Source of the DNA: an uncultured Coriobacteriaceae bacterium
GTDB lineage: Bacteria; Actinomycetota; Coriobacteriia; Coriobacteriales; Atopobiaceae
NCBI GenBank assembly: GCA_902786015.1
Contig: CADAAU010000002.1
Coordinates: 62,001-126,000 of the forward strand
DNA length: 64,000 bases
Direction of reading: 5' to 3'
Part shown: piece after piece, positions 33,520 to 63,345 of the stretch
How positions within the stretch are numbered: the first letter of the stretch is position 1
How the letters are laid out: every line of letters begins with the position of its first letter
Made by a program: the position numbers and the translations under genes
Notes under the pieces: generated by a model
Told to the model about the DNA's origin: nothing
Databases searched by the model: none
The model's input: only the letters and a program-made list of their open reading frames with translations

Positions 33520-33924
33520 CTATCCTACGCGACAGCAGGTTGCGCTCATGCGGGCCACGGGAGTGCCCAACTCGTCGGATACGTCCACGGTATAGAAGCT
33601 CAGCGTGCGCCCACGTTTCTGGGCGTCGCAGGTGGCGACGAGCCGTTTTCCGCGTACGCGTGACATAAAGTCGATGGTGCTGTTCACCGAGGCGTGGTGC
33701 TCGTGGAGGTTTGAGGCGACGGCCAAGGCGAAATCGGCGAGGGTAAAAATCGCGCCGCCCATCACGGCGCCCATCGCGTTGAGGTGCGACGGCCCCACAG
33801 TGAGCTCGCAGATGGCGTGGCCCTCTCGTGCTTCGACTACGGTGCAGCCACAGGCCTCCGTGGCAAATCTGTCGTTGGCAAACCGGGCCTGAACCTCGCC
33901 GAGCGTTGGATCTGTATTGCTCAT
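33520..33924 (-). CDS. PaaI-type hotdog thioesterase
   Basis: 134 residues from the ATG at 33924 with GGGAGG upstream. The hotdog core is HLNAMGAVMGGAIFTLADFALAVASN. In many members HGG stands where MGG is seen here, and the Asp of TLAD is kept. VNSTIDFMSRVRGKRLVA and GRTLSFYTVDVSD complete the fold. Such enzymes hydrolyse acyl-CoA, for example phenylacetyl-CoA. The gene lies 38 bases before helD, in the same direction. The substrate is unknown. Confidence 0.88.
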   Translation of the reverse strand: MSNTDPTLGEVQARFANDRFATEACGCTVVEAREGHAICELTVGPSHLNAMGAVMGGAIFTLADFALAVASNLHEHHASVNSTIDFMSRVRGKRLVATCDAQKRGRTLSFYTVDVSDELGTPVARMSATCCRVG

Positions 33925-33938
33925 AATCCACCTCCCTG

Positions 33939-33982
33939 CGCAAAGAGGCGGGCGCGCGACCTCTAGCCAGTCGCGTGCCCGC
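33939..33982 (-). terminator. Hairpin terminator for the small gene at 34016
   Basis: GCGGGCACGCGAC (33982-33970) pairs with GTCGCGCGCCCGC (33960-33948) on the minus strand, with one G-T wobble, followed by CTCTTTG. A stem of 13 bases is strong, the T-tract short. Confidence 0.6.
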
Positions 33983-34015
33983 CCCATCATGTGTGTGCTC
34001 TACGGTAGCAGGAAC

Positions 34016-34255
34016 CTACTCCTGCCAAGCGGCTGCCTCGTCGGCGGAGAGGGGACGAACGTCCTCGCCCTTGGCGTAGGGGGACTCGTCGCCGCCCTTG
34101 CCAGCAACAAAGTAGAAGCCCTGCTTGTTCTGGTAGAGGGTCTCCTCGTAGCCCGCGGGATCACCATATGCACCAAACGAACGAGTGCCCAGTACGGTAG
34201 ACTTCTCGGTGTCGTACACGTGACGCTTGCCGTCGAACTGCTTAACCTTACGCAT
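34016..34255 (-). CDS. Small conserved protein of mobile-element-associated type
   Basis: 79 residues from the ATG at 34255, preceded by TTGGATG. The upstream ATG at 34270 has no ribosome-binding site. The pattern VYDTEKSTVLGT, then TLYQNKQGFYFVAGKGG and IRPLS-like VRPLSADEAAAW, resembles small proteins found on mobile elements of Gram-positive bacteria (TExLYxxxxGxFFxxGxGG). That likeness is from memory of the pattern. Function unknown. No mobile-element gene is adjacent. Confidence 0.7.
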   Translation of the reverse strand: MRKVKQFDGKRHVYDTEKSTVLGTRSFGAYGDPAGYEETLYQNKQGFYFVAGKGGDESPYAKGEDVRPLSADEAAAWQE

Positions 34256-34383
34256 GTGACATCCAATCATTTACTAGAACGTACAAAAAGCCTGTGCGGG
34301 ATTGTATTCCCAACCCGACTTATATTGCTAGTGCCTCAACGAACTCTCCCCAACTGAAACGAAGATGATACATAGCAGTGGGT

Positions 34384-36597
34384 TTATGAGCTCCCTTCGG
34401 CCTCTTTTGCATCGCCTTGCCCCGCAAGCTTCGAGCCGAATCGTAAGTAGTCCATGTTTTGCAGGTCTCGGAACGTGGCGTCAAGGCTCGGAGAGGTATT
34501 TAGGTCGTGCCAGCGCCCGTCGGTACCCTTGAGGCCTATGCCCGTTACGACCTGTATTCGCTGGTGAACGGCAAGCTGTGCCGACTGGAACGGGTCGAGC
34601 GGTGCGCCCATCAGGTCAAGGATGCGTGCGCCAAGAAGATCTGCGCCGCAGTCGTCCACTTGATTTACCTGACCGGTGCCGGCCACGTTGTAGTTTGCCC
34701 ATATGGCGTACTCGGTTTGGTAGATGCGGGACTGGTGCCCTATGGTCTCGGGGTCCTCGTCCGCAAAGAACACGTCGTTTGCGATGCTCGATATTGCGGG
34801 GTGATGGTCGCCAAAGAAGGCCAAGACCACGGGACGGTCGACGTTTCTGAGCTCGTTAACAAACCACTCGAGGTCCTCGTCGGATGCCTGAATGCACGAG
34901 AGGTACTCGTTGAACTGGTCCGTGTCCCTCTCGTTGAGTCCGTCGAACTCGAAGGTCGTGAGTCGCTCGGGGGGAATGTTGCCTTGCTCGTAGCCTCCAT
35001 GGTTTTGCATGGTGACGTCAAAGATGAACTGGGGCTTGTCGGACGATTTGAGGACCTCGAGGCACTTCTCGTACGTCGCCCTGTCGGTGATGCCCGAATG
35101 CAGTGCGGGCGCGTCTTCAAAGCTGTTGTTGGTGCTGTAAAACTCGTCGAACCCCATGTCGCGATATGTGGCGCGGCGGTTCCAGTTGTCCTGCTCATTG
35201 GGGTGGATCGCAGTGGAGGTGTAGCCCATGTCCGAGAACTGGCGTGCCAGATTCGGGACACCCACGAAGCTAAACATCTGGTAGGGGTATTTGCCGTACC
35301 CAATAAATGCGATGGAGTTACCGGTGAGGCACTCGAACTCGGTGTTGCAGGTGCCGCCTCCAAATGTGGACACGCCAAGCTGCCCACGCATGAGGGTGTC
35401 GTTGAGCCCCTCCCTAAAGAACGCGGGACCCTGATAGTCGCCATGGAGGTTGTCGAGGCGTGACAGGTCAGCGAAGGTCTCGTTCATCACGACGATGACG
35501 CTTGGCTTGATTTGCTTGAACTGTGCGGTTGAGGCGGACCGGCGTGCGGAGCGCTCGGGCATGGCGTCTGCCTTGGCGGCGTACGACTCGGTAATCTTCT
35601 GTGCTTTCTCGTCGGTGTAGCCAATGGGAACTTTGATGGGGAGGTCCTCCGCTGCCGTCATAAAGGATGGCAGGAAGCCCTGCTTCTTGTAGCTTTCGGC
35701 AGTGTTCCAATAATTCATCTTCATGCCGTAGCCCTCATGGTAGTTGGGGACGGAAATCCACCAGCTAAGCGCCAGGCCAAAGGCAAGGGCGAAGGGGAGG
35801 TTCCAGCAGAGGTTGTATACAAAACGCTTTGCGCCCGTCGCCCGTGCGGGACGAATGAAGCTCACAAACAACAAGGCCAGGCCGCCGTACATTATGGCCT
35901 TGATGTCGAACGTGTTGAGTATGTAGGAGTATGAGTCGCTGACTTCGGTCGCCGTTTGCAAGGCGAGGAGGTCCGTCGGCAGAATGGCGGCGCGCCTGAA
36001 CTGCAACACAAAGTGCTCGATGAGTCCGATGGCAATGCAGGAGCCAAACACGATGGCCGGGCCGAGCGACCTTCTTTGCAACACAAAATAGGCGATGAAT
36101 GCGGCGATTGCAATCATGGTGAACTCGATCGCCACGCTGTCGATGCCCAGGCTGTCTACCTTGCCGTTCCACGGGACCTCCAGTGCCCGACGTGCCAGCT
36201 CGCTGCCCAAAAGGATGATACCCACGTCACGTAATGCGCGTATGACTTGACCCACGCCCCGTTTGACCGTTCCGCCGCTGTCGAGGTCATCGAGGGCCTT
36301 GAACACACGCTCGCGTTGGGCGAGTATCGACCCACATGTGGTGAGCACCACGACGCACTGCATGAGGTAGAGCACGTCGGTGCTCATGAACTGATTGCCA
36401 CACCAAACGGCCAGGAAAATGAGGGCGGCGGCGATGAGGACCGACCAGATGAGCGAGCCGATGCCCAGGTGCTTGCCGTCGCGACGACAACTGATGACGT
36501 GCCAAGCGGCGCAGCCGATGACGATTACGGCACCAATAATGGGTACGAACATATATTCGGGTGGCGTTGTTCCCAAGAGAAGCTCGTTCTCGTCCAT
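34384..36597 (-). CDS. LtaS-like sulfatase-family phosphoglycerol transferase
   Basis: 737 residues from the ATG at 36597. Five or more membrane segments lie in residues 15-345, then an extracellular alkaline-phosphatase/sulfatase domain. Motifs: VIVVMNETFADLSRL, with Thr as the likely nucleophile, STFGGGTCNTEFECLTGN, YTSTAIHPNEQDNWNRRATY, MGFDEF, VTMQNHGGYEQ and AFFGDHHPAI. These match lipoteichoic-acid synthase-type enzymes that transfer glycerol phosphate from phosphatidylglycerol. A reading frame that extends to 38331 crosses galKT on the other strand and is not coding. Confidence 0.9.
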   Translation of the reverse strand: MDENELLLGTTPPEYMFVPIIGAVIVIGCAAWHVISCRRDGKHLGIGSLIWSVLIAAALIFLAVWCGNQFMSTDVLYLMQCVVVLTTCGSILAQRERVFKALDDLDSGGTVKRGVGQVIRALRDVGIILLGSELARRALEVPWNGKVDSLGIDSVAIEFTMIAIAAFIAYFVLQRRSLGPAIVFGSCIAIGLIEHFVLQFRRAAILPTDLLALQTATEVSDSYSYILNTFDIKAIMYGGLALLFVSFIRPARATGAKRFVYNLCWNLPFALAFGLALSWWISVPNYHEGYGMKMNYWNTAESYKKQGFLPSFMTAAEDLPIKVPIGYTDEKAQKITESYAAKADAMPERSARRSASTAQFKQIKPSVIVVMNETFADLSRLDNLHGDYQGPAFFREGLNDTLMRGQLGVSTFGGGTCNTEFECLTGNSIAFIGYGKYPYQMFSFVGVPNLARQFSDMGYTSTAIHPNEQDNWNRRATYRDMGFDEFYSTNNSFEDAPALHSGITDRATYEKCLEVLKSSDKPQFIFDVTMQNHGGYEQGNIPPERLTTFEFDGLNERDTDQFNEYLSCIQASDEDLEWFVNELRNVDRPVVLAFFGDHHPAISSIANDVFFADEDPETIGHQSRIYQTEYAIWANYNVAGTGQVNQVDDCGADLLGARILDLMGAPLDPFQSAQLAVHQRIQVVTGIGLKGTDGRWHDLNTSPSLDATFRDLQNMDYLRFGSKLAGQGDAKEAEGSS

Positions 36598-36789
36598 CAA
36601 TACTTCACCCCTGTTCAAATGTCTCTCTTGCAACAGTAGATAATAGCCTACGAAGGCGCCCGCCGGCACCTCACAATATTCTGTACACTTATACGTGAAG
36701 GATGTGCGTCCAGACATGGTGGCGGGCGATGAGGATGCCTGTCGGTGAGCTATGTGTCGCAAGTTGCGAAAGCATGAGATGGAGGAGGC

Positions 36790-37995
36790 ATGAGCATGGT
36801 GGACACGAGTTTTGCGCAAGAACTTGTTGGCCAGTTGCGGGAGTCGTTTGGGGACGCTCGGTACGAGCGTGTCCTTGCCGTGAGGGCGCCGGGACGAACG
36901 GAGCTTGCGGGCAACCACACCGACCACGAGGGCGGCGAGGTCATTGCCGCGGCAGTTGATCGCTACATTCGGGGCGTCTTTGCACCCAACGGCACCGACG
37001 AGTTGCGCGTGATGAGCGAAGGGTACGGATTGACAACAGTTCGGGCAAGTGAGCTGGGTGCACGCGACGAAGAGCACGGGAGCACTGCGGCGCTTGTGCG
37101 AGGGATGGCGGCGCTCTTTGCCGAGCGGGGATTCGAGCCGCGGGGATTCGATGCCTACATTGTGAGCGACGTGCCCGGCGGGTCGGGCCTTTCGAGCTCT
37201 GCCGCGTTCGAGCTCGAGCTCGGTCAGGCGTTCAACGCGCTCTGGGCGGACGGCGCGCTTGCGGCCGCCGATTTGGCGCTCATGGCGCAGCGGGCGGAGC
37301 GCGAGTGGTTTGGCAAGCCGTGTGGGCTCATGGACCAGGCGGCGGTGGCGCTCGGAGGCATTCAGCACATGGACTTTGCCGATCCGACGAAACTCGAGGC
37401 CAAAAGCATAGACTTCGATTTCGCCAAGCATGGGTTTGCGGTCTGCATCGTGGCGGTGGGGGCCGACCATGCGGCAAACATCGACGATTATGCGGCGGTT
37501 CCAAAAGAGATGCAGCAGGTGGCACGCGAGCTTGGGAAGCAGGTGCTTTCTGAGGTACGGCCCGAGGACGTGTTGCAGGCGATTCCGCGTCTTCGTGAGC
37601 GCTTGGGTGATCGTTCGGTGCTGCGCGCGTTGCATTACTACAACGAGGAGAATCTTGTCGAGCGTCGTGTGGTGGCATTGAGCGAAGGGAACGTGAAGCA
37701 GTTCTTGGAACTTACGCGACTTTCGGGCACGAGTTCGGCGATGCTGCTGCAAAACGTGAGCATAGGAGGATCGGCCGAACAGCCTTCCATGCTTGCCATC
37801 GTGCTGGCCGAACGACTCTTGATGGGACGTGGTGCCGCACGCGTGCACGGTGGTGGCTTTGGGGGAACCATTCAGGCGTTCGTGCCGTTCGACGTTCTTG
37901 ACGAGTTCTCCAAAGGCATGGACGCCGTGTTTGGTGATGGCGCCTGTAGCGTGTGCAACGTCGATCACGAGGGAGCGCGGGCAGAATGGATCTAG
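36790..37995 (+). CDS. galK: Galactokinase
   Basis: 401 residues; GGAGGAGG precedes the ATG. GHMP kinase with the galactokinase signature GRTELAGNHTDHEGG, the ATP loop VPGGSGLSSSAAFE, and GLMDQAAVALGG. The C-terminal ARVHGGGFGGTIQAFV is typical. It phosphorylates galactose at C1 in the Leloir pathway. Its stop overlaps the galT start by ten bases. It is divergent from the LtaS-like gene, separated by 192 bases. Confidence 0.96.
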   Translation: MSMVDTSFAQELVGQLRESFGDARYERVLAVRAPGRTELAGNHTDHEGGEVIAAAVDRYIRGVFAPNGTDELRVMSEGYGLTTVRASELGARDEEHGSTAALVRGMAALFAERGFEPRGFDAYIVSDVPGGSGLSSSAAFELELGQAFNALWADGALAAADLALMAQRAEREWFGKPCGLMDQAAVALGGIQHMDFADPTKLEAKSIDFDFAKHGFAVCIVAVGADHAANIDDYAAVPKEMQQVARELGKQVLSEVRPEDVLQAIPRLRERLGDRSVLRALHYYNEENLVERRVVALSEGNVKQFLELTRLSGTSSAMLLQNVSIGGSAEQPSMLAIVLAERLLMGRGAARVHGGGFGGTIQAFVPFDVLDEFSKGMDAVFGDGACSVCNVDHEGARAEWI

Positions 37996-39404
37996 CGTAC
38001 GAGGGCGCCCGCGCGGCGTCGTGGCTGGTGGAGTATGCCGTGTCGCATGGGCTGGTGGTCGAGGGCGACCGCGTGTGGGCATACAACCGGCTGTTGGAGT
38101 CTGTGGGGCTGTACGGCCCGTCTTGTCCTGCGTGTCCGGAGGGGGAGTACGACATCGACTTGGCACTCTGGGCGCTCGCCGAGGTTGCTGTAAAGAACGG
38201 GCTGGTGGAAGACACGGCCGGCGGTCGCGATCGTGCTGCGATGCGCGTGGCGGGCTGCATCGTTCCGCCGCCTTCGGTTGTGGGCGGCCGGTTTTGGTCT
38301 TTGCACGACGACGAGGGTCCACGCGCGGCAACGGATTGGTTTTACGGATTGTGTTGCGACGTAAACTACGTGCGCAGGTCCGCCATAGCGCGAGACCTCA
38401 AGTGGACGGTGGACACGCGCTGGGGCGAGCTCGAGATAACCATAAACAAGTCCAAGCCCGAGAAGGACCCGCGCGACATAGCGGCTGCCGGTGCGGCGCC
38501 TGTTGGGGAGGCGTATCCTGCTTGTCAACTCTGCGTGCAGAACGAAGGGTACTCGGGTCGTCCTGCCGCGGCGTCGCACGGCGCGCATCCTGCTCGGCAG
38601 AACCTGCGTATCGTACCCATCGATCTTGGCGGCGAGCAGTGGGGCTTTCAATACAGCCCGTATGCCTATTTTAACGAGCACTGCATCTTCATGAGCTCCG
38701 AGCATCGGCCCATGCATGTGGACCGAGGCTCGATTGCCAACCTGCTCCGCATCGTGGACGTGCTGCCGCACTACTTCGTGGGGTCGAACGCCGACCTCCC
38801 CATTGTTGGTGGCTCGATTCTCTCGCACGACCACTTTCAGGGCGGGCGGCACGAGTTTCCCATGGATCGCGCGCGAGAGCAGGACGAGTTTCGCATGCCC
38901 GGCTCAGCGGAGGTGAGCTGTTCCGTGCTGGAGTGGCCTATGACGGCGCTGCGACTCAGGTCGGACGACAAGGCCGCGCTGCTCGAGGCGGCGGTGCGCG
39001 TGATCGACCTGTGGCGCGGCTGGGATGCTCCGCGCGTGGGCGTCTTTTCTTGCGACGAGGACGGTACACGCCACAATACCGTTACCCCTATCTGTCGGCG
39101 GCGGGGTTCGGCGTTCGAACTCGACCTTGTGCTGCGGTGCAACGTGACGACGGAGGAGCATCCGCTTGGCGTCTTTCATCCGCATGAGGACAAATGGCAC
39201 GTAAAGAAAGAGAACATAGGCCTTATTGAGGTGATGGGGCTTGCCATCCTGCCTCCTCGCCTGGAGACGGAGCTCGACGCCGGTCGACTCACGCGTGACG
39301 AGATTGGTCGCGTGTTTGCGTCGGTGCTCGAGGATGCGGGCGTGTTCAAGTGGGACGAAGCGGGTCGTGCCGAGCTAGCACGTTTCATGGCGGTGCTGCA
39401 CTAG
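37986..39404 (+). CDS. galT: Galactose-1-phosphate uridylyltransferase, type 2
   Basis: 472 residues, starting at the ATG at 37986 inside the end of galK. The length and the motifs DWFYGLCCDVNYVRRSAIARDL (in part), TINKSKPEKDP, ACQLCVQNEGYSGRP, NEHCIFMSSEH and GGSILSHDHFQGG (catalytic HxHxQ type) are those of the firmicute GalT family. It swaps UMP between UDP-glucose and galactose-1-phosphate. No galE lies next to it. Confidence 0.96.
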   Translation: MDLAYEGARAASWLVEYAVSHGLVVEGDRVWAYNRLLESVGLYGPSCPACPEGEYDIDLALWALAEVAVKNGLVEDTAGGRDRAAMRVAGCIVPPPSVVGGRFWSLHDDEGPRAATDWFYGLCCDVNYVRRSAIARDLKWTVDTRWGELEITINKSKPEKDPRDIAAAGAAPVGEAYPACQLCVQNEGYSGRPAAASHGAHPARQNLRIVPIDLGGEQWGFQYSPYAYFNEHCIFMSSEHRPMHVDRGSIANLLRIVDVLPHYFVGSNADLPIVGGSILSHDHFQGGRHEFPMDRAREQDEFRMPGSAEVSCSVLEWPMTALRLRSDDKAALLEAAVRVIDLWRGWDAPRVGVFSCDEDGTRHNTVTPICRRRGSAFELDLVLRCNVTTEEHPLGVFHPHEDKWHVKKENIGLIEVMGLAILPPRLETELDAGRLTRDEIGRVFASVLEDAGVFKWDEAGRAELARFMAVLH

Positions 39405-39409
39405 CTCGG

Positions 39410-39476
39410 GCAGGCAAAGGGGATACTCCCTATCGTTTGATAACATCAAACGATAGGGAGTATCCCCTTTGCCTGC
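39410..39476. repeat. Perfect 32-base palindrome with 3-base loop
   Basis: Arms at 39410-39441 and 39445-39476 are fully complementary over 32 bases around AAC. The outer end is GCAGGCAAAGGGG, the inner end CCCTATCGTTTGAT. It lies between galT and the cellulase gene, which converge. The core GGGGATACTCCC recurs at 26451, 16188, 20730 and elsewhere. It probably ends transcription from both sides, although its tails are not T-rich. Confidence 0.9.
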
Positions 39477-39483
39477 CTATGCG

Positions 39484-42141
39484 TTACCCGGCATTGATCG
39501 CGAGGCCTGCGTCGGCGGTGACTTGGAACCCGATGCCCAAAAGCGTCGCGCCACTCGCAATACCGCCGTTGTAGCTCATGTTTCGAATGTCGAGGTTCGA
39601 CCCCGCCGTGGCATACGTTCCGTTCCAGCCGTTGGTGAGTGCGACGGCCTTGTTGAACGGGACGGTGATGCTCCAGGACGTACAGTCCGCTCCTTTGTTG
39701 GTAACGGAGAGGTCGTATTGGTAGCAGGTCTTGCCGTTTCCCGCCTGCCACGAGCTGACGGGCGTGGCCTTGCACGCGAAGGAACCGGACGAGAACGAAA
39801 CCGCCGGCGCGGAACCCTGCGGCGGGGTCGAGCCGCTGGTATCGCCCGAGTACGTCTTTGAGCTATCGGTCCCTGCGGGCAGGGACCCATTAAGGGCCTT
39901 GAGCAGCCAAGATCCCGACGCGGACAGGTCATCTGCGCCAAATCCCGACGTCGCCTGGCAGCTGCTCTTTATTGCGGACGCCGACTCTGCCTTGTTGCAC
40001 AGGCTCCACATGCACCAGCTCACCCCAAGGCTGTTCATGGTGGTGACCCAATCGTTGGCAGAGGCCTCGTCAATCGCGCCGTTGCCGCTGGCATCGCAGA
40101 TGCCAAATTCGCTCACAAAGACCGGAAGCCCTCCACGCACCGCGCTTACCATGCGATTGCGCAGGTCGTCCTTATGCGTGGCGGCGTAGAAGTGCAGGGC
40201 ATACATGACGTTGTCGTACGACAGCGGGCTGGCGGCTGCCTTGTCGATCTCCTGCGACCACGTGGGCGTGCCCACGATGATCACGGCGTCGGGATCGTTC
40301 TGGCGGATGACGGGTATGACTTGGTCGGCGTACTGCTTGATTTCGTCCCAAGAAGTTCCGCCGTTTGGCTCGTTGCAAATCTCGTAGAGCACGTTCTGGT
40401 TGTCCCTAAAGGTGGATGACATGTCTGCAAAGAATGCCTGCGCCTCATTCGTGTGCCGGTTGGGGTTTCCGTCCGAAAGGATGTGCCAGTCCACGATTGC
40501 GTAGAGGTCGTTGTCCGTTGCGAAGCGCACGCCCTTCTTGACAAGGTCTGTGAGGTAGGCTTGGTCGCCTCCGCTGCAGTATCCGCCGTACTCTTCGGTG
40601 TACATGGCGAGGCGTACGACGTTGGCGTTCCAGTTGTTGCGAAGCTGCTTGAAGCAGTCGTCGTTGACGTAAGCGGGGAACCATGCCAAGCCGTGTGTGC
40701 TGATGCCTCTGAGCTGGATGGGCTGCTCGTTGTGGTCTACGAGCTGATTGCCCTTGACCTTAAGGGCGCCCGCAGTCGATGGCCCTGCCGTCGAGGCCGT
40801 CTGTGCGGGTGCGGAACCCGGCGTGCTTACCCTAAAGGCGTCGGATGTTGCCTCTTGTATTCCCATGAAGTCGGCAGTCGGGGCCTGGCTGTCCTTGGGT
40901 ACAAGGACGATTTGTATTGCCTCCAGTCGCTTGGAGTATCCTGCCGTGCCGGCCTCTTCTCCGTTGCGTGCCCATCCCATCCAGCCAAAGGTCTGTGCGT
41001 GGACGCGATACCATACGTCGTAGCGATCGGCGACTTGTCCGTAAGGTGCGATCTGTATTGCCTCCAGGCGCTTGGACTCTCCCTCGGTGCCGCTCATGGC
41101 GCCGTCGCGTGCCCAGTCCTGCCAGCCGTAGGTCTGCACGTGCGTGCGGTACTCGATGCCGCCGGAGCAGTCCATGTCGGGAAGGTTGATGTTTATGCCT
41201 TCGAGGCGCTTTGATTGTCCCGAGGTGCCCGATACCTCTCCGTCAAACTTCCAGTCCTGCCAGCCGTAAGTTTGAACATGCGTGCGATACTGAACGGCCC
41301 GCGTTATATACGGCTGCTCCGTGCTGCCGGGAGCGGCGGAACCCTTGGGAAGGATGCGTATCTCTATGCCTTCGAGTCGCTTGGAGTAGGTGGCGGTTCC
41401 GGCTCGTGCGCCGTTTGAGGTCCAGCCGAGCCAACCGTATGTTTGGGCGTGGACGTGATACCACACGTCGTAGTGCTCTGCCATTGCTCCAGTAAGCTGA
41501 ATCTGTATTGCCTCCAGGCGCTTGGACTCTCCCTCGGTGCCACTCATTGCGCCGTCGCGCACCCAGTCCTGCCAGCCGTAGGTCTGCACGTGCGTGCGGT
41601 ACTCGATGCCGCCTGCATGGGGTGCGGATTCCAACTTGATGTTGATGCCCTCAAGGCGCTTGGACTCTCCCTGGGTCCCGCTCATGGCTCCGTCGCGTAC
41701 CCAGTCTTGCCACCCGTAGGTCTGCACGTGTGTCTTATAGGCAACTTGCGGACTGGCCTGCGCCTCAAGGGCGTCTTCTGCGGGGCGTCCCTCCTTTGCA
41801 TCGTCGTTCGCGGTAGGTTTTTGGACGTCGGCTTCGGATGAGGGTGTCGGTTCGCCCGCCCGCCTTTCGTCCATTTGCTCTTCGGGCGTCTGCTCCTTGG
41901 CGGGGGGTTCGCTCTTTGTGGGCGTGTCTGGTGTCGCAGGTCCTGCCTCGAGGGTCGAAGGTTCCTTTGCGCTGTTTTCCTGCTCGTTTGCGGTTTGGGC
42001 CTGTTCGGATTCCGCCATCTCCATGGGCTCTGCGCGACGTTTGGGGTTCTCCTGCGCTGAGGCAAAAGGCTGCGGTACAAGCATCATTACCAGCATTAGT
42101 GCGAACGCTACAACCAACAATCCGTGCTTTGTTTTGCTCAT
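39484..42141 (-). CDS. Secreted GH5 cellulase with six ChW repeats and C-terminal CBM
   Basis: 885 residues from the ATG at 42141 (a GTG seven codons earlier is rejected). A signal peptide ends near ASAQE, then about 95 low-complexity residues. Six clostridial hydrophobic-with-conserved-W (ChW) repeats span about 133-415; each has a core VQTYGWQDW or AQTYGWLGW and ends in SKRLEGI. A GH5 domain spans about 460-755, with the acid/base Glu in LYEICNEPNGG and the nucleophile Glu in VFVSEFGICD. LHFYAATHKDD is also seen. A CBM2-like domain closes the protein (FACKATPVSSWQ, CTSWSITVPFNKAV). It should hydrolyse beta-1,4-glucans outside the cell. Confidence 0.93.
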   Translation of the reverse strand: MSKTKHGLLVVAFALMLVMMLVPQPFASAQENPKRRAEPMEMAESEQAQTANEQENSAKEPSTLEAGPATPDTPTKSEPPAKEQTPEEQMDERRAGEPTPSSEADVQKPTANDDAKEGRPAEDALEAQASPQVAYKTHVQTYGWQDWVRDGAMSGTQGESKRLEGINIKLESAPHAGGIEYRTHVQTYGWQDWVRDGAMSGTEGESKRLEAIQIQLTGAMAEHYDVWYHVHAQTYGWLGWTSNGARAGTATYSKRLEGIEIRILPKGSAAPGSTEQPYITRAVQYRTHVQTYGWQDWKFDGEVSGTSGQSKRLEGININLPDMDCSGGIEYRTHVQTYGWQDWARDGAMSGTEGESKRLEAIQIAPYGQVADRYDVWYRVHAQTFGWMGWARNGEEAGTAGYSKRLEAIQIVLVPKDSQAPTADFMGIQEATSDAFRVSTPGSAPAQTASTAGPSTAGALKVKGNQLVDHNEQPIQLRGISTHGLAWFPAYVNDDCFKQLRNNWNANVVRLAMYTEEYGGYCSGGDQAYLTDLVKKGVRFATDNDLYAIVDWHILSDGNPNRHTNEAQAFFADMSSTFRDNQNVLYEICNEPNGGTSWDEIKQYADQVIPVIRQNDPDAVIIVGTPTWSQEIDKAAASPLSYDNVMYALHFYAATHKDDLRNRMVSAVRGGLPVFVSEFGICDASGNGAIDEASANDWVTTMNSLGVSWCMWSLCNKAESASAIKSSCQATSGFGADDLSASGSWLLKALNGSLPAGTDSSKTYSGDTSGSTPPQGSAPAVSFSSGSFACKATPVSSWQAGNGKTCYQYDLSVTNKGADCTSWSITVPFNKAVALTNGWNGTYATAGSNLDIRNMSYNGGIASGATLLGIGFQVTADAGLAINAG
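40890..41760. repeat. Direct repeats encoding ChW units
   Basis: Six copies of about 130-150 bases in the cellulase gene are highly alike, with blocks such as CCAGTCCTGCCAGCCGTAGG and TTGCCTCCAGGCGCTTGGAC repeated nearly unchanged. Copies near 41050-41150 and 41500-41600 are almost identical, pointing to recent duplication or gene conversion. Confidence 0.85.
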
Positions 42142-42499
42142 TCCGTTCCCCTTATCCGCCACGTGCCGACTCCATAAGTAATCTTACCACCGGTTCCAAA
42201 AAACTCCGCCCGGTATCCCAAATAGTGCCTTCGCGCCTTTTAGAAGGCGAATTCTATTACTAATATGGAATTGCCTCCATCCAGGCTTGTTGCTGCCGTG
42301 GTGCCGAAAGGGTTTGACGCTACTTTGAGGCGGGGCCAGACGCGCATCCGCCCTCGGAACTTCAAGAGTTTGGGTCAGCGAACCAAACACGGGGACTGTT
42401 TTTGCCAATCGTTGGTTTGTTTGGACGGTGTAGCGGTGGGACCGTTGTCTATACAATTAGGGTACGCATAAAACGTGGTATCGAGGAGAGGAGCACCAC
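42142..42499. other. Intergenic region, divergent promoters
   Basis: A 358-base gap with no gene. TTTTAGAAGGCGAATTC and GCGCCTTTTAGAAGGCG near 42235 form a short hairpin. The flavoprotein promoter candidate lies at 42445-42474 (18-base spacer). Elsewhere nothing distinct is visible. Confidence 0.35.
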
Positions 42500-43465
42500 A
42501 TGAAGGTTATGGCCATTTGCGCAGGTCGCAAGAACGGCAATGGCGAGATTCTGGCCAAGGAGGCCCTGAGTGCCGCGCAGGCCGCAGGCGCCGAGGTCGA
42601 GATGATCAACCTGTTTGACTATAACATCCTGCCTTGCACTGGCTGTGAGGGCTGCACCATGCAAATGGGCGAAGTCGCCATGGATCCCACAAAGAAGTAC
42701 CGTGGTTGCGTGCTCAAGAACAAGGACGACGTGGATGCCCTCGTTGCCGAGATGCACACCTGCAATGGCGTCATCTTCTCCGTGCCCACCTACGACCTTA
42801 CTCCCAGCTCCCTTTACACACGTTTCGCTCAGCGCTTCCTCGCCTACGAGCTTTCGTTCCTGCTCGAGATTGGTGTCGTAAAGGAGAACCCCAACACCGT
42901 TGCCGGCCTCATCGCCGTAGGCGGTTCCATGCACGACTGGCAGTCCTTGGCGCTTGAGAGCCTACAGGCAACCATGTTTACGATGTCGCTCACGGTTGTC
43001 GACCGCTTCATGAGCCAGCGCGTTGGCCGTCCGGGCAACGTCCTGCTGCACCAAGACCAGCTCGACCGTGCACATCAGATGGGCGAGAACATCGTCAAGG
43101 CCATCCAGACGCCCGTTGAGGAGCGCACCTGGCTGGGCGATCCCGACGACGGCGTGTGCCCCAACTGCCATTCCAGCCTTGTGTATCCTGGCGACGCCCA
43201 CTGGGACGGCATCGAGTTCCCGTACGAGTGCGCGGTGTGCGGCTGCGGCGGAGAGCTGGGTATCAACCCCCACAACGGTCGTCCGATGCTCGTCATCGAC
43301 CCCGAGAACGGCCATGTGCGCGATCGCAACATCGACGAGTCCCGCTCCGAGCACCTCAACGAGATCATCCAGACCCGCATCGACTTCTTCCAGCGTCAGG
43401 GAGAGGTCAAGCCGCTGCAGGCCAAGTATCGCGATATGAAGTTCCCCACGTTCGTCATCGAGTAA
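42500..43465 (+). CDS. Iron-sulfur flavoprotein / NAD(P)H-dependent FMN reductase family
   Basis: 321 residues; the ATG follows GAGGAGAGG. The flavodoxin-like N-terminal half starts MKVMAICAGRKNGNGEILA (FMN phosphate loop), with LPCTGCEGCTMQMG (CX2CX2C) and a fourth Cys at YRGC, typical of iron-sulfur flavoproteins. VIFSVPTYDLTPSS follows. A second Cys-rich knuckle lies in the C-terminal half (VCPNCHSS and YECAVCGCGGELG). It likely carries electrons; the donor and acceptor are unknown. A candidate promoter is TTGTCT (42445) and TAAAAC (42469). It might serve the thiolase cluster nearby, but the distance is 2.6 kb. Confidence 0.8.
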   Translation: MKVMAICAGRKNGNGEILAKEALSAAQAAGAEVEMINLFDYNILPCTGCEGCTMQMGEVAMDPTKKYRGCVLKNKDDVDALVAEMHTCNGVIFSVPTYDLTPSSLYTRFAQRFLAYELSFLLEIGVVKENPNTVAGLIAVGGSMHDWQSLALESLQATMFTMSLTVVDRFMSQRVGRPGNVLLHQDQLDRAHQMGENIVKAIQTPVEERTWLGDPDDGVCPNCHSSLVYPGDAHWDGIEFPYECAVCGCGGELGINPHNGRPMLVIDPENGHVRDRNIDESRSEHLNEIIQTRIDFFQRQGEVKPLQAKYRDMKFPTFVIE

Positions 43466-44025: not shown

Positions 44026-45630
44026 TCAGCCCCTCAGGTCTTGGCGGCTCGAGGGGGTGCGCGGAGAAAAGAGGCCCAGATACATAAGGATCCTAAAGCT
44101 CATTTGCAGCGCAAACTGGTCCTCTCCAGACGTGAGATCCATGCCCAATATTTCCTTGATGCGGTTCATGCGATAGAGCAGCGTGTTCTTGTGCAGGTGC
44201 AGCATGGACGCCGCCCGTTTCGTGATGCCCGCGACTTGCAGGTAACAAAAGAGCGTCTCCATGAGCTCGCCCGAGTGCTTCTCGTCGTGAGCGGCGAGCC
44301 GGACCAAGGCGGGGTGGCAGTAGCCCAACAGGCTCGTGCGGCGATTCGCCAAATCGAGTAGACGCAGGTAGGAATAGTCGCAGTGGCGATACAGGCCGTT
44401 TTCGTCAAAGACGTTGCGGGCCATTTCGCCCATGCGGATGGCGGCACGTGCTTGTTCGTATCCGCGTCGCGTGTCTATGAGGTGCTCAAAGGCGTCGGAA
44501 ACGCCTGCCGAGAGTCCGTTGAGGCGCGCGACCTCACGCAGCAGGCGATACGAGTCGCGTTCGAGGTCATATTCCGTGTCGCGGCTCACAAGAACGACCA
44601 AGTTCTGGTGGTAGCGCGTGTAGAGCGCGTGGTGCATCATGGGCCGCAGCTGGCCGGCTATGTGCTCCGCCTGCTCTTGTCGGAGCCCCTCGTTGGGCGC
44701 ATGCAAACAGACGACCGTAAGCACGGGCTTGGGATGGAAGTTGACGGCCTTGAGTCGCCTGCGGGTCACAGCCTCGCTCGGGTGATGGTCGCCCAGAAGA
44801 TTAGCCAAAAAGAACGAGCCCAGCTCTCCGCTCGTGGGACCCCATACCTCGCTCTTTTGCATCTCTTGTGCAACAAACTGGAGCAAGCGGTCAAAGCACT
44901 CGCGATCGAGCTCGGTAAACGGTCGCGCGTGCTCCATCATCATGACGTGGGCGATGCATACACCGCGTACCATGACGGCGCCGGTCATGGTGTTGCAGTC
45001 AAGAATCTCGTTGTGTTCCACGAGCGGCGCCCCCAGATCCGCGAGGCGCGAGTCGATGTGCGAGCTCCGAATGTAGGAGACCGCATTGTCGAGTACGGTC
45101 TCGTTTTGGATCTCTTGTGCCATGACGCGAGAAAGCGTGGACTCTACGCCCTCGAGGTCTGCCAGATGGTGGGCAATATAGCGGTAGGTGGTATCGACCA
45201 CAACGATTGGATTGCCCAAGGCCACGGCCGACTCCTCCACGAGGTACTGCAGCCCCGAGTTCGAGAAGTGTGCGGCGAGCATGCGCCGGATGATGCCCGC
45301 CTGCTCCTGGTCTTCCAAGAAATAGGCCTGAAGCGCGTTGTAGCAAGCGAACGGGTCGACGTCGCCCGCGAGCGTCACGACGTTGGTCATCACACCGGTC
45401 GGAAGGGCCTCGTCCGAGCTGTCGGAGCCGTACAGCATGAGGCTGGGCGACTCGGGCAGGTGCTTGTTGGACAACAGCGTAGTGTCTCCAAAGTAGAGGA
45501 TGTCCTCTCGCAGGGTGGTCGCCTCGGGGGTGAGGAAGCTCACCGTGTAGACGTCCGCCTCGGGATCGGCGAGCGAGAGATTGTCTATCGAACCCTCCGG
45601 TAGGCGTGCGAGAAGCGTCGAAAGCCTCAT
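44026..45630 (-). CDS. PucR/CdaR-family transcriptional regulator
   Basis: 534 residues from the ATG at 45630 (GGGAG upstream); the ATG at 45642 is an alternative. N-terminal region of about 300 residues with a GAF-like middle (ALGNPIVVVDTTYRYIAHH, then VMVRGVCIAHVMMMEH). The C-terminal HTH_30 domain is clear: YCHPALVRL, LFCYLQVAGITKRAASMLHLHKNT (in part) and LLYRMNRIKEILGMDL. Such regulators respond to small molecules. The gene is divergent from the thiolase operon, separated by 448 bases, and is the likely regulator of it. Confidence 0.88.
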   Translation of the reverse strand: MRLSTLLARLPEGSIDNLSLADPEADVYTVSFLTPEATTLREDILYFGDTTLLSNKHLPESPSLMLYGSDSSDEALPTGVMTNVVTLAGDVDPFACYNALQAYFLEDQEQAGIIRRMLAAHFSNSGLQYLVEESAVALGNPIVVVDTTYRYIAHHLADLEGVESTLSRVMAQEIQNETVLDNAVSYIRSSHIDSRLADLGAPLVEHNEILDCNTMTGAVMVRGVCIAHVMMMEHARPFTELDRECFDRLLQFVAQEMQKSEVWGPTSGELGSFFLANLLGDHHPSEAVTRRRLKAVNFHPKPVLTVVCLHAPNEGLRQEQAEHIAGQLRPMMHHALYTRYHQNLVVLVSRDTEYDLERDSYRLLREVARLNGLSAGVSDAFEHLIDTRRGYEQARAAIRMGEMARNVFDENGLYRHCDYSYLRLLDLANRRTSLLGYCHPALVRLAAHDEKHSGELMETLFCYLQVAGITKRAASMLHLHKNTLLYRMNRIKEILGMDLTSGEDQFALQMSFRILMYLGLFSPRTPSSRQDLRG

Positions 45631-46078: not shown

Positions 46079-47365
46079 ATGTTCAAAGTAGGCAAGTACG
46101 CGCGCAGCGTCTCCATTGTGGGCGTTGGCTGCACCCCGTTCACGAATTTTGAGGATCATCCCGAGACCAAGGGCATGAGCGAGGGAGAAGCGTTCGGTTA
46201 CGCTGCGCTGGAGGCCATCGCGGACGCCGGGCTCGAACCGCGCGATATCCAGTACTTTTATCATGGCTCTGCCAATCCCTTCATGATCGGCGACTCTCTG
46301 ACTCCCAACATGCAGGTTGCTGACTGGTTTGGTACCCGCGGCATCGGTTCGGTGCATCACTCCGAGGCCTGCTGCACGGGCTATGTGGCTATGCAGGAAG
46401 CTGCCATGGCCATCGCTTCGGGCGAGTTTGATATCGTTCTTTCGGGTGCCGTGGATCTTGCCGCGAGCCTGCCGGTCGTCGGTGCTCCCGGCCACATGCG
46501 TCGTGACTTCCCACTCGAAGAGATGCTTCCCTCCATCCCCATGGTGTACGATCGCGCCTACGGACGTCCCTTGGACTCCGCATTTGGTATCAGCTTTGAC
46601 AACTGGATCAACGAATATCGCTGGACCTACGATCTTTCGGCCGACGACGTTGACCGCGCGCTCAACGCAGTCGCAAAGAGCCTGCGCCGCGCCTCCGTGC
46701 TCAATCCGCTGGGCTTCTATGACCAAGACCTCGACCAGGTGGCGGCCGCCAACGGCATGCCCGACGCCGACGCCTTCCTCACCTCCATGTTTAATCCCAG
46801 GGTTACACAGTACTTGCGCGTCACAGGCTTCGAGACCAAGTGCGACGGTGCTGCCGCCATGGTGCTCATGCCTACCGAAATGGCCGTCGCCCGTGGCCTG
46901 GATCACAAGGTGATCGAGATTCTGGGCACTGGCAGCGCCGCCTACGAAGGCGCCACCCTTGCCAACGAAAAGACCGGCACCATCCGTGGTACCAAGCAGG
47001 CCTTCGAGCTTACCGGCGTCTCTCCCGACGAGGTCGACCTGCTCTTCATCAACGACTTCTTTATGGCGGGCGACATCTGCGTGCCCGAGGAGGTCGGCTA
47101 CGTACCGCGTGGCGAGGCTTGGCAGTACGCCATCGACGGTCGCTTTGCATTCGACGGCGACAAACCCATCAACACCCACGGCGGCCGCTGCAACTTTGGT
47201 CACGCCCACGGCGCCTCCGGCATCGCCGACATCGTGGAGGCTGTGCGCCAGATGCGCGGCGAGGCGGGCGCAACCCAAATGAAGAAGCTGCCCCAGACCA
47301 CGTTGTTCCGCGGCTTCGGTGGCGGACAAAACATCCGCGTCCAGCTCATCCGTACCGTCGACTAG
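46079..47365 (+). CDS. Thiolase-family (SCP-x/PhlC-like) acyltransferase
   Basis: 428 residues. The thiolase fold starts VSIVGVGCTPF. The active-site region is GSVHHSEACCTGYVAM (Cys98/Cys99), and INTHGGRCNFGHAHGASG carries the catalytic His. FINDFFMAGD stands in place of the usual E-D-C-F block. It is not a standard degradative thiolase. Members of this branch work with a DUF35 partner, as in archaeal HMG-CoA synthesis and PhlC/PhlB of diacetylphloroglucinol biosynthesis. The DUF35 gene and an acyl carrier protein follow at once. Likely reaction: carbon-carbon bond formation or acyl transfer; substrate unknown. Confidence 0.86.
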   Translation: MFKVGKYARSVSIVGVGCTPFTNFEDHPETKGMSEGEAFGYAALEAIADAGLEPRDIQYFYHGSANPFMIGDSLTPNMQVADWFGTRGIGSVHHSEACCTGYVAMQEAAMAIASGEFDIVLSGAVDLAASLPVVGAPGHMRRDFPLEEMLPSIPMVYDRAYGRPLDSAFGISFDNWINEYRWTYDLSADDVDRALNAVAKSLRRASVLNPLGFYDQDLDQVAAANGMPDADAFLTSMFNPRVTQYLRVTGFETKCDGAAAMVLMPTEMAVARGLDHKVIEILGTGSAAYEGATLANEKTGTIRGTKQAFELTGVSPDEVDLLFINDFFMAGDICVPEEVGYVPRGEAWQYAIDGRFAFDGDKPINTHGGRCNFGHAHGASGIADIVEAVRQMRGEAGATQMKKLPQTTLFRGFGGGQNIRVQLIRTVD

Positions 47366-47394
47366 TCGCGCGCCGCGCAGAAAGTGAGAAAACC

Positions 47395-47850
47395 ATGCCT
47401 CTTCTCAATCAGATGGAGCCCATCGTAAAGAAGTTCTACGACGGCGTTGCCGAGGGCAAGTACTACGGCCGCAAGTGCAAGGAGTGCGGCGCCATCGAGT
47501 TCCCGCCCCACATCGCCTGCAACACCTGCGGATATCACGAGACCGAGTGGGTCGAGCTCTCGGGCCATGGCACCCTGCAGTCGTTCGTGGTACCCGGCAT
47601 TCAAAACGATAAGCCCTACCTCAAGGCTCTGGGCGCCTATGGCTACGGCGCCGTGAAGCTGGACGAAGGTCCCGTGTACACGTTCGTGGTATACGCCGGA
47701 AAGAAGAAGATCGCAAAGGGCTTGCAGCAGCGTCTTGCTGACGGCGAGGTCATTGGGGTTCACGCTAAGCCCATCGACCGTGAGGTGCCTCTCAAGCCCG
47801 GTTCCGACGAGGTGGTCGCCTGGAGCCAGCTCTGCTTCGAGCTCGACTAA
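47395..47850 (+). CDS. DUF35 zinc-ribbon/OB-fold acyl-CoA-binding protein
   Basis: 151 residues, 29 bases after the thiolase. The zinc ribbon has Cys28, Cys31, Cys42 and Cys45 (RKCKECGAIEFPPHIACNTCG). The OB fold follows: GHGTLQSFVVPGI, YGYGAVKLDEGPVYTFVV. In known complexes the DUF35 subunit holds the CoA and links the active sites of two thiolase-type enzymes. It is expected to bind the thiolase encoded upstream. Confidence 0.9.
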   Translation: MPLLNQMEPIVKKFYDGVAEGKYYGRKCKECGAIEFPPHIACNTCGYHETEWVELSGHGTLQSFVVPGIQNDKPYLKALGAYGYGAVKLDEGPVYTFVVYAGKKKIAKGLQQRLADGEVIGVHAKPIDREVPLKPGSDEVVAWSQLCFELD

Positions 47851-47901
47851 CGCATGTAAAAGAGTGACGCGTCCGCGCCACCTAAAGGAAAGGAAAGAAC
47901 C

Positions 47902-48138
47902 ATGAACCAGGAACTACTTGAGCAACTCGCAGGCTTCGCCAAGGTCGCGTACCAGTATGACGGCGAGATTACAGCCGACACCACCTTCGACGAGCTTGGC
48001 AAGGGCTCGATGAAGATGATTGCCCTCACCTCCACCATCGAGAACGAGCTTGATGCCGAGGTCACGATCCATGAGGTCATGAAGATGAAGACCTTCGGCG
48101 AGCTCGTTGAGCACGTCGAGGAAGAGATGGACGAGTAA
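47902..48138 (+). CDS. Acyl carrier protein with atypical GSM attachment motif
   Basis: 78 residues; AAAGGAAAGG precedes the ATG. A four-helix carrier pattern with the probable phosphopantetheine Ser36 in FDELGKGSMKMIAL. The usual D-S-L is replaced by G-S-M. TIENELDAEVTIHEVMKMKTF is the usual helix II/III region. Encoded right after the thiolase and DUF35 genes and followed by a terminator, so it is a dedicated carrier and not the fatty-acid ACP. The Sfp-type transferase at 62665 might load it. Confidence 0.86.
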   Translation: MNQELLEQLAGFAKVAYQYDGEITADTTFDELGKGSMKMIALTSTIENELDAEVTIHEVMKMKTFGELVEHVEEEMDE

Positions 48139-48160: not shown

Positions 48161-48205
48161 CGAGGAGCCTTCCCGAATCGAGCCCGGGAAGGCTCCTCGT
48201 GTTAT
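48161..48205 (+). terminator. Terminator of the thiolase operon
   Basis: CGAGGAGCCTTCCCG (48161-48175) and CGGGAAGGCTCCTCG (48185-48199) form a perfect 15-base stem, followed by TGTTATG. Confidence 0.75.
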
Positions 48206-48322: not shown

Positions 48323-49807
<1,485 letters not shown>

Positions 49808-62664: not shown

Positions 62665-63345
62665 ATGGGGTCTGGACTGCTCAACGGCGAAGTTCCAGCA
62701 CTCGAAGCCGCCGATGTTCGATGCTGGCTCTATGACGTGTCGGAGCTCTATGACGACACGACCTTCTCGATGACAATGGGGTGCTTGCCGTGGGAGGAGC
62801 GGCGTCAGCGCGCGAGGAGGTATCGCTTCAAAAAGGACCAGTGTCTCTGTTTGGGCGCCGGCCTGCTCGTGGCCTACGCGCTCAAGAAGATGGGCGTCCG
62901 TGACCTCTCGCTGGGCAGTGGGGAGTGGGGAAAGCCGTATCTTCTCCGGTACCCACACATCCACTTTAACCTTTCGCATAGTGGCACGATGGTCGCCTGT
63001 GCGGTGGCGAGCGAGCCGGTAGGAGTCGATGTGGAGGAGCGTCACGCATACGACGAGGGCGTGGCGCGCTTGTGCTTCACAATAGCGGAACGGCACTGGA
63101 TGATGGGGCAACCGAACGTGGACGAGGCGTTCGTGCGGCTATGGGTGCGCAAAGAGAGCTATCTTAAGCTCCTAGGCACGGGCCTTACGGACGATGTGCG
63201 CGCATTCGATGTGACGCCCGGATTGACGGGCCGCCGCAACGTCCAGTTCTCCGAACGTGAGCAGGGTGGCCATACCGTATGCGTGTGTGCCGAATCACCC
63301 GCCCGCGTAACGTTTGAAACGATGGAGATGCTCCCAATTGCCTGA
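62665..63345 (+). CDS. Sfp-type 4'-phosphopantetheinyl transferase
   Basis: 226 residues from the second of two tandem ATG codons (GGGAGG six bases upstream). RARRYRFKKDQCLCLGAGLLV, NLSHSGTMVACAVAS, VGVDVEERHAYDEG (Mg2+-binding D-x-E), and LWVRKESYLKLLGTGL with the catalytic W-x-x-K-E-S are the Sfp hallmarks. It transfers phosphopantetheine from CoA to a Ser of carrier proteins. The atypical carrier at 47902 is a candidate. Sfp-type enzymes usually serve secondary metabolism. Confidence 0.92.
   Translation: MGSGLLNGEVPALEAADVRCWLYDVSELYDDTTFSMTMGCLPWEERRQRARRYRFKKDQCLCLGAGLLVAYALKKMGVRDLSLGSGEWGKPYLLRYPHIHFNLSHSGTMVACAVASEPVGVDVEERHAYDEGVARLCFTIAERHWMMGQPNVDEAFVRLWVRKESYLKLLGTGLTDDVRAFDVTPGLTGRRNVQFSEREQGGHTVCVCAESPARVTFETMEMLPIA

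Follow-up and report, generated by a model that had tools for sequence, protein, structure and literature searches.

Three adjacent genes in the genome of an uncultured Coriobacteriaceae bacterium, which encode a thiolase, a DUF35 protein and a dedicated acyl carrier protein (ACP), may well belong to a fermentative pathway in which the thiolase-DUF35 pair cleaves a carbon-carbon bond onto its own ACP and ATP is formed by way of a phosphotransacetylase (Pta)-like enzyme and a kinase. The gene set is conserved in related genomes, occurs in naturally fused forms and co-occurs with other enzymes; the catabolic direction, the ACP as substrate of the Pta-like enzyme, ATP as the product and the class of substrate are what we infer from these patterns. 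The window (the whole stretch of DNA analysed, 64,000 nucleotides) sits on contig C2 of a 3.49 Mb genome (G000), which its closest named relatives place among the Olsenella-like Atopobiaceae, and contains the following features.

42500..43465, + strand: iron-sulfur flavoprotein (FMN_red, 55 bits; CTGCEGC motif), a linked partner
44026..45630, - strand: divergent PucR/CdaR-type regulator (HTH_30, GGDEF_2; start by relatives)
46079..47365, + strand: thiolase, 428 aa (Thiolase_C_1, Foldseek; Cys98, His375, PhlC-like His62)
47395..47850, + strand: DUF35 partner (zinc ribbon and OB fold), 151 aa (Pfam near threshold, phmmer, CxxC-x13-CxxC)
47902..48138, + strand: dedicated ACP, 78 aa, Ser36 in a GSM context (PF00550, predicted model)
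48161..48199, no strand: 15-bp inverted repeat (loop of 9 nt), probably a terminator where two genes converge (comparison of both arms)
62665..63345, + strand: Sfp-type phosphopantetheinyl transferase (PPTase; ACPS, 57.8 bits)

The original prediction of a same-strand thiolase-DUF35-ACP triplet was borne out by the open reading frames and by Pfam and phmmer comparisons, the three genes being separated by gaps of 29 and 51 bp. The thiolase matches Thiolase_C_1 (PF22691) with 99.2 bits (cut-off 28) and the ACP matches the PP-binding family (PF00550) with 37.9 bits (cut-off 20.8). The DUF35 protein lies just below the Pfam cut-offs (PF01796/PF12172; zf-ChsH2 and OB_ChsH2_C), with 26.5 against 27.1 bits and 23.1 against 23.2 bits; it is similar to six solved DUF35-type chains in phmmer (E=2e-6 to 1e-2) and, on direct reading, contains a four-cysteine zinc ribbon (C-x2-C-x13-C-x2-C). 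As to the terminator predicted at 48161, the inverted repeat is present but its T-tract is weak, and it could be the terminator of the operon. A gene for a GH1-type beta-glucosidase (48323-49795, - strand) converges on the ACP gene, and a further - strand gene (39484-42162) encodes a secreted protein of 892 aa that reads as a series of ChW-type repeats, then a GH5-like cellulase domain and, at its end, a carbohydrate-binding region.

A scan of relatives, with one genome taken per species, yielded 78 loci that belong mostly to Atopobiaceae and otherwise to Collinsella, four Streptococcus species, Pseudobutyrivibrio, Agathobacter and other Lachnospiraceae, Oscillospiraceae, Erysipelotrichaceae, one Anaerolineales genome and a distant Paenibacillus; many of the records are titled as gut samples from ruminants, horses, water deer or other animals. 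The thiolase occurs in 46/140 genomes of the family and in 50/400 of the class, while among 391 evenly drawn genomes of the class of Agathobacter ruminis (L072) it was found in the centre genome only and the set is therefore rare there. The triplet holds together in other genomes: when neighbourhoods were compared by tblastn for the 56 thiolase loci flanked by 7 kb or more in both directions, DUF35 was linked in 56/56, the ACP in 53/56, Pta in 39/56 and the kinase in 37/56 (13/13, 10/13, 8/13 and 8/13 of the clusters formed at 75% identity, respectively). The linkage of thiolase, DUF35 and ACP is more than would be expected by chance.

The order thiolase-DUF35-ACP-Pta-Buk (PTA_PTB and butyrate kinase) is found in Collinsella, several Olsenella-like Atopobiaceae and Streptococcus; BLAST matches place the same five genes in the Anaerolineales (Chloroflexota) locus L045, and Clostridia loci have the same set in other gene orders. 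Other genes intervene between ACP and Pta-Buk in the relatives L008 and L014. The Pta-like/Buk pair of the window genome is located 35 kb downstream of the triplet (C2:144872-146990), and in a sister species of the same genus the pair shares a contig with the triplet. Genes for small membrane proteins, of DUF1097 and of an unnamed ~168-aa family, recur beside Pta-Buk (L091:4059-5095 and relatives). Thiolases only 33-48% identical to that of the window (L123-L126) are still accompanied by DUF35, ACP, a Pta-like enzyme and a kinase, which in L124 is of the acetate/propionate kinase family. By BLAST over 20 clusters, neither Pta nor ACP was detected within 8 kb in the L046, L052, L077, L119 and L120 groups, although L119 does have an ACP according to Pfam. 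The divergent thiolase-DUF35 sets of L119 and L120, both from one genome of the family (G138), stand with SDR, OYE-type reductase and Amidohydro_2 genes, neighbours which suggest an aromatic pathway.

The Pta-like enzyme is a member of PF01515 (282 bits) and is nearer to Pta (about 250 bits) than to phosphotransbutyrylase (Ptb; about 70-80 bits). The copy in the window genome stays far below the threshold of TIGR02706 (phosphate butyryltransferase; 78 bits, cut-off 410.5), and the butyrate kinase of this genome (L091) exceeds that of TIGR02707 (374.7 bits, cut-off 289.1). Locus L074, which has Pta/Buk and no ACP, encodes a true Ptb (306 bits), a single case that fits the occurrence of an ACP-specific transacylase elsewhere.

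The serine of the putative phosphopantetheine attachment site (Ser36) is invariant in 87/87 carriers (69/69 of the window type and 18/18 of a second type), and in the window ACP model (pLDDT 93.3) helix II begins with it. This protein is not the fatty-acid ACP, because it has a GSM motif in place of the canonical DSL and the genome encodes a separate housekeeping ACP, adjoining plsX, with the motif DSF. DUF35 is fused to ACP domains in six loci and seven proteins, either with one ACP (L066, L069 and two proteins in L068) or with two, joined by Ala/Pro/Glu-rich linkers (L065, L067 and L076), and thiolase-DUF35 fusions with a separate ACP are found in L059, L061 and L070; the ACP therefore belongs to the thiolase complex. 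These data support the acyl-transfer system with a dedicated ACP and a PhlC/PhlB-like thiolase-DUF35 pair that had been proposed from the window. Both kinds of natural fusion could ease structural work on the complex.

Ordinary CoA chemistry, with the thiolase-DUF35 pair cleaving its substrate with CoA, Pta/Buk acting on acyl-CoA and the ACP delivering, for instance, a carrier-bound substrate, would agree with the CoA thioesters used by the solved thiolase-DUF35 relatives (6esq, 7pyt, 6ok1) and with the few related loci in which no ACP is nearby (L046, L052, L074). We regard it as unlikely in view of the near-constant linkage of the ACP, the DUF35-ACP fusions and the presence of PPTase genes in several operons, and also because the sole ACP-less locus with Pta/Buk has a different Ptb subfamily.

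Foldseek matches of the thiolase model (pLDDT 81) include 7yvy, 6et9/6esq, 7pyt, 5m3k/9skh and 9vbo (E to 1e-31), and the model resembles SCP2 thiolases, the archaeal thiolase/HMGCS/DUF35 complex, BbsAB, PhlABC and MucABC. Cys98 is kept in 86/86 and His375 in 84/84 ungapped alignment rows and, judged by this nucleophilic Cys and catalytic His, the protein is a member of the DUF35-associated branch of the thiolase superfamily. The SCP2-type HDCF motif (second Cys) is absent, N325-D326-F being found instead in 79-82/87 homologues. In a pairwise alignment the YFYHG segment of the window thiolase matches YGYHG of the PhlC-type chain 9skh_I, and His62 occupies the position of PhlC His56, a residue that forms a hydrogen bond to a hydroxyl of phloroglucinol and is indispensable to the activity of an enzyme for which an acyl-Cys intermediate has been reported (PMC6392133). 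His62 is retained in 80/86 homologues and lost in divergent members that still have ACP and Pta; BbsB carries Val and 6esq carries Ile instead. The likeness to PhlC suggests that the leaving group may be a phenol or an enolised 1,3-dioxygenated compound.

The genes around the operon named in the original prediction are real. The divergent regulator matches HTH_30 (PF13556) with 65.4 bits and GGDEF_2 with 48.8 bits, possesses the C-terminal PucR HTH and, compared with its relatives, probably starts at 45630 though the open reading frame extends to 46143; a PucR gene is present in 32/56 flanked thiolase loci. The iron-sulfur flavoprotein is likewise linked to the thiolase in 32/56 loci (4/13 clusters). 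Sfp or AcpS genes occur near the thiolase in 6/13 clusters, the window Sfp copy lies 14.5 kb away, and a second PPTase is encoded on contig C13 of the same genome beside a second carrier (ACP2) and a CocE/NonD hydrolase; the transferase at 62665 is only a candidate loader of the window ACP. An NRPS-like open frame of 3,048 aa with three carrier domains (G000:C9, about 33860-40160) also needs a PPTase.

Comparison of 140 genomes of the family revealed which other genes accompany the thiolase. The Pta-like enzyme is present in 45/46 genomes with the thiolase and in 10/94 others, and by genus in 15/15 with the thiolase against 1/20 without it (p=5e-9, the collapse to genera being a crude guard against kinship). 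A NuoG/GltD-like electron-transfer protein, whose gene adjoins that of a VprA-like ene-reductase in several clusters, occurs in 44/46 genomes against 9/94, and the CocE/NonD hydrolase, which is accompanied by its own ACP (ACP2), in 38/46 against 9/94. In the window genome PPTase, ACP2 and CocE are found on G000:C13 near 65800-68890 (L092:8837-11890). The CocE/NonD-ACP module is also found in L112, L113, L115, L118 and L132, and several genomes add a Pta-like enzyme, butyrate kinase, PPTase and an MFS transporter. Two genomes that lack the thiolase (G002 and G124) have an operon for CocE, ACP, Pta-like enzyme, butyrate kinase and MFS transporter, with AcpS in G124. In G100 the thiolase and CocE modules flank a reductase block: on one side are Buk, Pta, ACP2 and CocE, followed by genes for PucR, flavoprotein, VprA-like, NuoG-like and NuoF-like proteins, and on the other side flavoprotein, PucR, TetR, thiolase and DUF35. 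This contig appears to be that of L038, in which the ACP, Pta and Buk matches come after thiolase/DUF35. An ACP-Pta-kinase chassis common to two different acyl-cleaving enzymes is the strongest hint of energy conservation.

The proposed pathway can be outlined as follows. In some species the VprA-like reductase and the electron-transfer proteins, to judge from their linkage, would reduce the substrate. Cys98 would then attack the acyl carbon and expel a carbon leaving group, as in the chemistry of the family, the substrate of this thiolytic step being presumably a non-CoA compound with a 1,3-dioxygenated carbon skeleton, such as a beta-diketone or a C-acylated or reduced phenol (e.g., a cyclic 1,3-dione). 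The phosphopantetheine thiol at Ser36 of the ACP would next receive the acyl group, and DUF35 would provide the docking that the fusions and gene adjacency suggest; the Pta-like enzyme would turn acyl-S-ACP and phosphate into acyl phosphate, from which butyrate or acetate kinase would produce ATP and a carboxylate.

Genes linked to the thiolase include those for the VprA-like reductase, a C-deglycosidase and MFS transporters. The beta subunit of a C-glycoside deglycosidase (PF19906) is encoded near the thiolase locus of goat-gut Oscillospiraceae (L065:2310-3734 and L071), with a TIM-barrel partner in L065. Catabolism is favoured by these transporters, the PucR and BglG-type regulators, the deglycosidase, the ene-reductases and sugar transporters. 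Known Pta/Buk enzymes act on CoA esters and are reversible, and such chemistry leaves room for biosynthetic acylation. In that event the kinase and the Pta-like enzyme would spend ATP to convert a carboxylate into acyl-ACP, from which thiolase-DUF35 would C-acylate an acceptor in the manner of PhlABC/MucABC; the resemblance of the thiolase model to the acyltransferases PhlC and MucABC and the presence of TetR and PucR regulators agree with this. A paper on tetramates (PMC10161427) gives no donor information. The catabolic look of the neighbours, which include sugar ABC transporters, and the same ACP-Pta-Buk set in the thiolase-free CocE module make the reverse direction improbable, as does the fact that the core loci read revealed neither a KASIII-like A subunit nor any gene for tailoring or resistance. 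Of the original prediction, acyl transfer through the ACP is supported; the conserved Pta-like enzyme and kinase, the fusions and the reductase and CocE modules render an ATP-yielding catabolic route likelier than the acylation, its product unspecified, that was entertained beside it.

Within this ATP-yielding route, the YxYHG histidine shared with PhlC and the co-occurring reductase module point to reduced polyphenols or acylphenols, and a polyphenol-derived substrate is put forward tentatively. No upstream or substrate gene is common to all thiolase loci, and the substrate may therefore vary between lineages. It could also be a sugar-derived diketo acid, cleaved by the same ACP-linked catabolic route, as loci of rumen Clostridia contain Gfo/Idh proteins, TIM-barrel isomerases, an aldo-keto reductase, sugar ABC transporters and glycoside hydrolases, and the window operon itself has GH1 and GH5 genes on its flanks. 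This proposal has a low probability: Coriobacteriia loci are mostly devoid of such genes (L042 has only PPTase, TetR, the core set and MFS), His62 is PhlC-like, the reductase module co-occurs, and Gfo/Idh and TIM-barrel genes are also part of C-glycoside pathways (as with the deglycosidase in L065). Other readings were rejected. A part in fatty-acid or polyketide synthesis is discounted as the main reading, since the core loci read showed no KS/AT/KR genes and the genome has a distinct DSF-type ACP next to plsX. Against the formation of butyrate from acetyl-CoA, genes for crotonase and for hydroxyacyl- or butyryl-CoA dehydrogenase went unnoticed in all neighbourhoods that were read, and the transacylase falls outside Ptb. 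For the known phloroglucinol pathway, the cyclase family PF04199 is absent from the window genome.

Acyl carrier proteins are known chiefly from biosynthesis. It is conceivable, if short of probable, that the two modules represent a general mode of fermentation in gut bacteria in which dedicated ACPs replace CoA in energy conservation, thiolase-DUF35 acting on C-C bonds and the CocE/NonD serine hydrolase on esters or similar bonds, each loading its own ACP; plant-derived acyl compounds would then be cleaved with energy saved rather than hydrolysed. If so, ACPs would carry acyl groups toward substrate-level phosphorylation in Collinsella, Olsenella and other common gut genera, a possible ATP gain from C-acyl or 1,3-diketone dietary compounds would be explained, and conserved uncharacterised thiolase, DUF35, ACP and CocE genes would acquire functions and provide new biocatalysts for C-C bond cleavage or Friedel-Crafts reactions. 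Confirmation would add a new energy-harvesting route in gut and rumen bacteria. Both the thiolase and the CocE gene sets with ACP are apparently undescribed: no description of the thiolase-DUF35-ACP-Pta-kinase or CocE-ACP combinations was found in the full-text literature, with subscription papers mostly outside its scope and novelty thus unproven.

Among known systems, PhlABC and MucABC share with the proposed complex a thiolase-fold C subunit and a DUF35 B subunit, including the Cys and the YxYHG histidine, at about 20-23% structural identity to the window thiolase. However, they need a KASIII-like A subunit, which neither the window operon nor those related core operons that were read displayed; they have no ACP, Pta or kinase, and the role of PhlABC is biosynthetic. 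The benzoylsuccinyl-CoA thiolase BbsAB, the archaeal thiolase/HMGCS/DUF35 complex and Ltp2-ChsH2 are thiolase-DUF35 complexes of the same fold, but their substrates are CoA thioesters. Phloroglucinol degradation in Clostridium scatologenes is alike in that reduction precedes C-C cleavage and that acetate and butyrate kinase act downstream, but it relies on hydrolysis by a cyclase and on a CoA-using enzyme for the cleavage of a beta-keto acid (PMC10470551). The dihydrophloroglucinol cyclohydrolase family (PF04199, Cyclase) was not found in the window genome, and the missing ring-opening hydrolase leaves room for a thiolytic alternative. Citrate lyase and malonate decarboxylase with their ACPs, and glycine reductase with protein C, are examples of catabolic cleavage on a dedicated carrier or of the conversion of a protein-bound acyl group to acyl phosphate, but their machinery is unrelated, and they have special prosthetic groups or lack an ACP. 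Finally, the pathway of phosphotransacetylase or phosphotransbutyrylase and butyrate kinase comprises the same families (PF01515, TIGR02707) with the expected ATP yield; known Pta/Ptb enzymes use acyl-CoA, whereas the Pta-like group described here is a separate subfamily linked to ACP.
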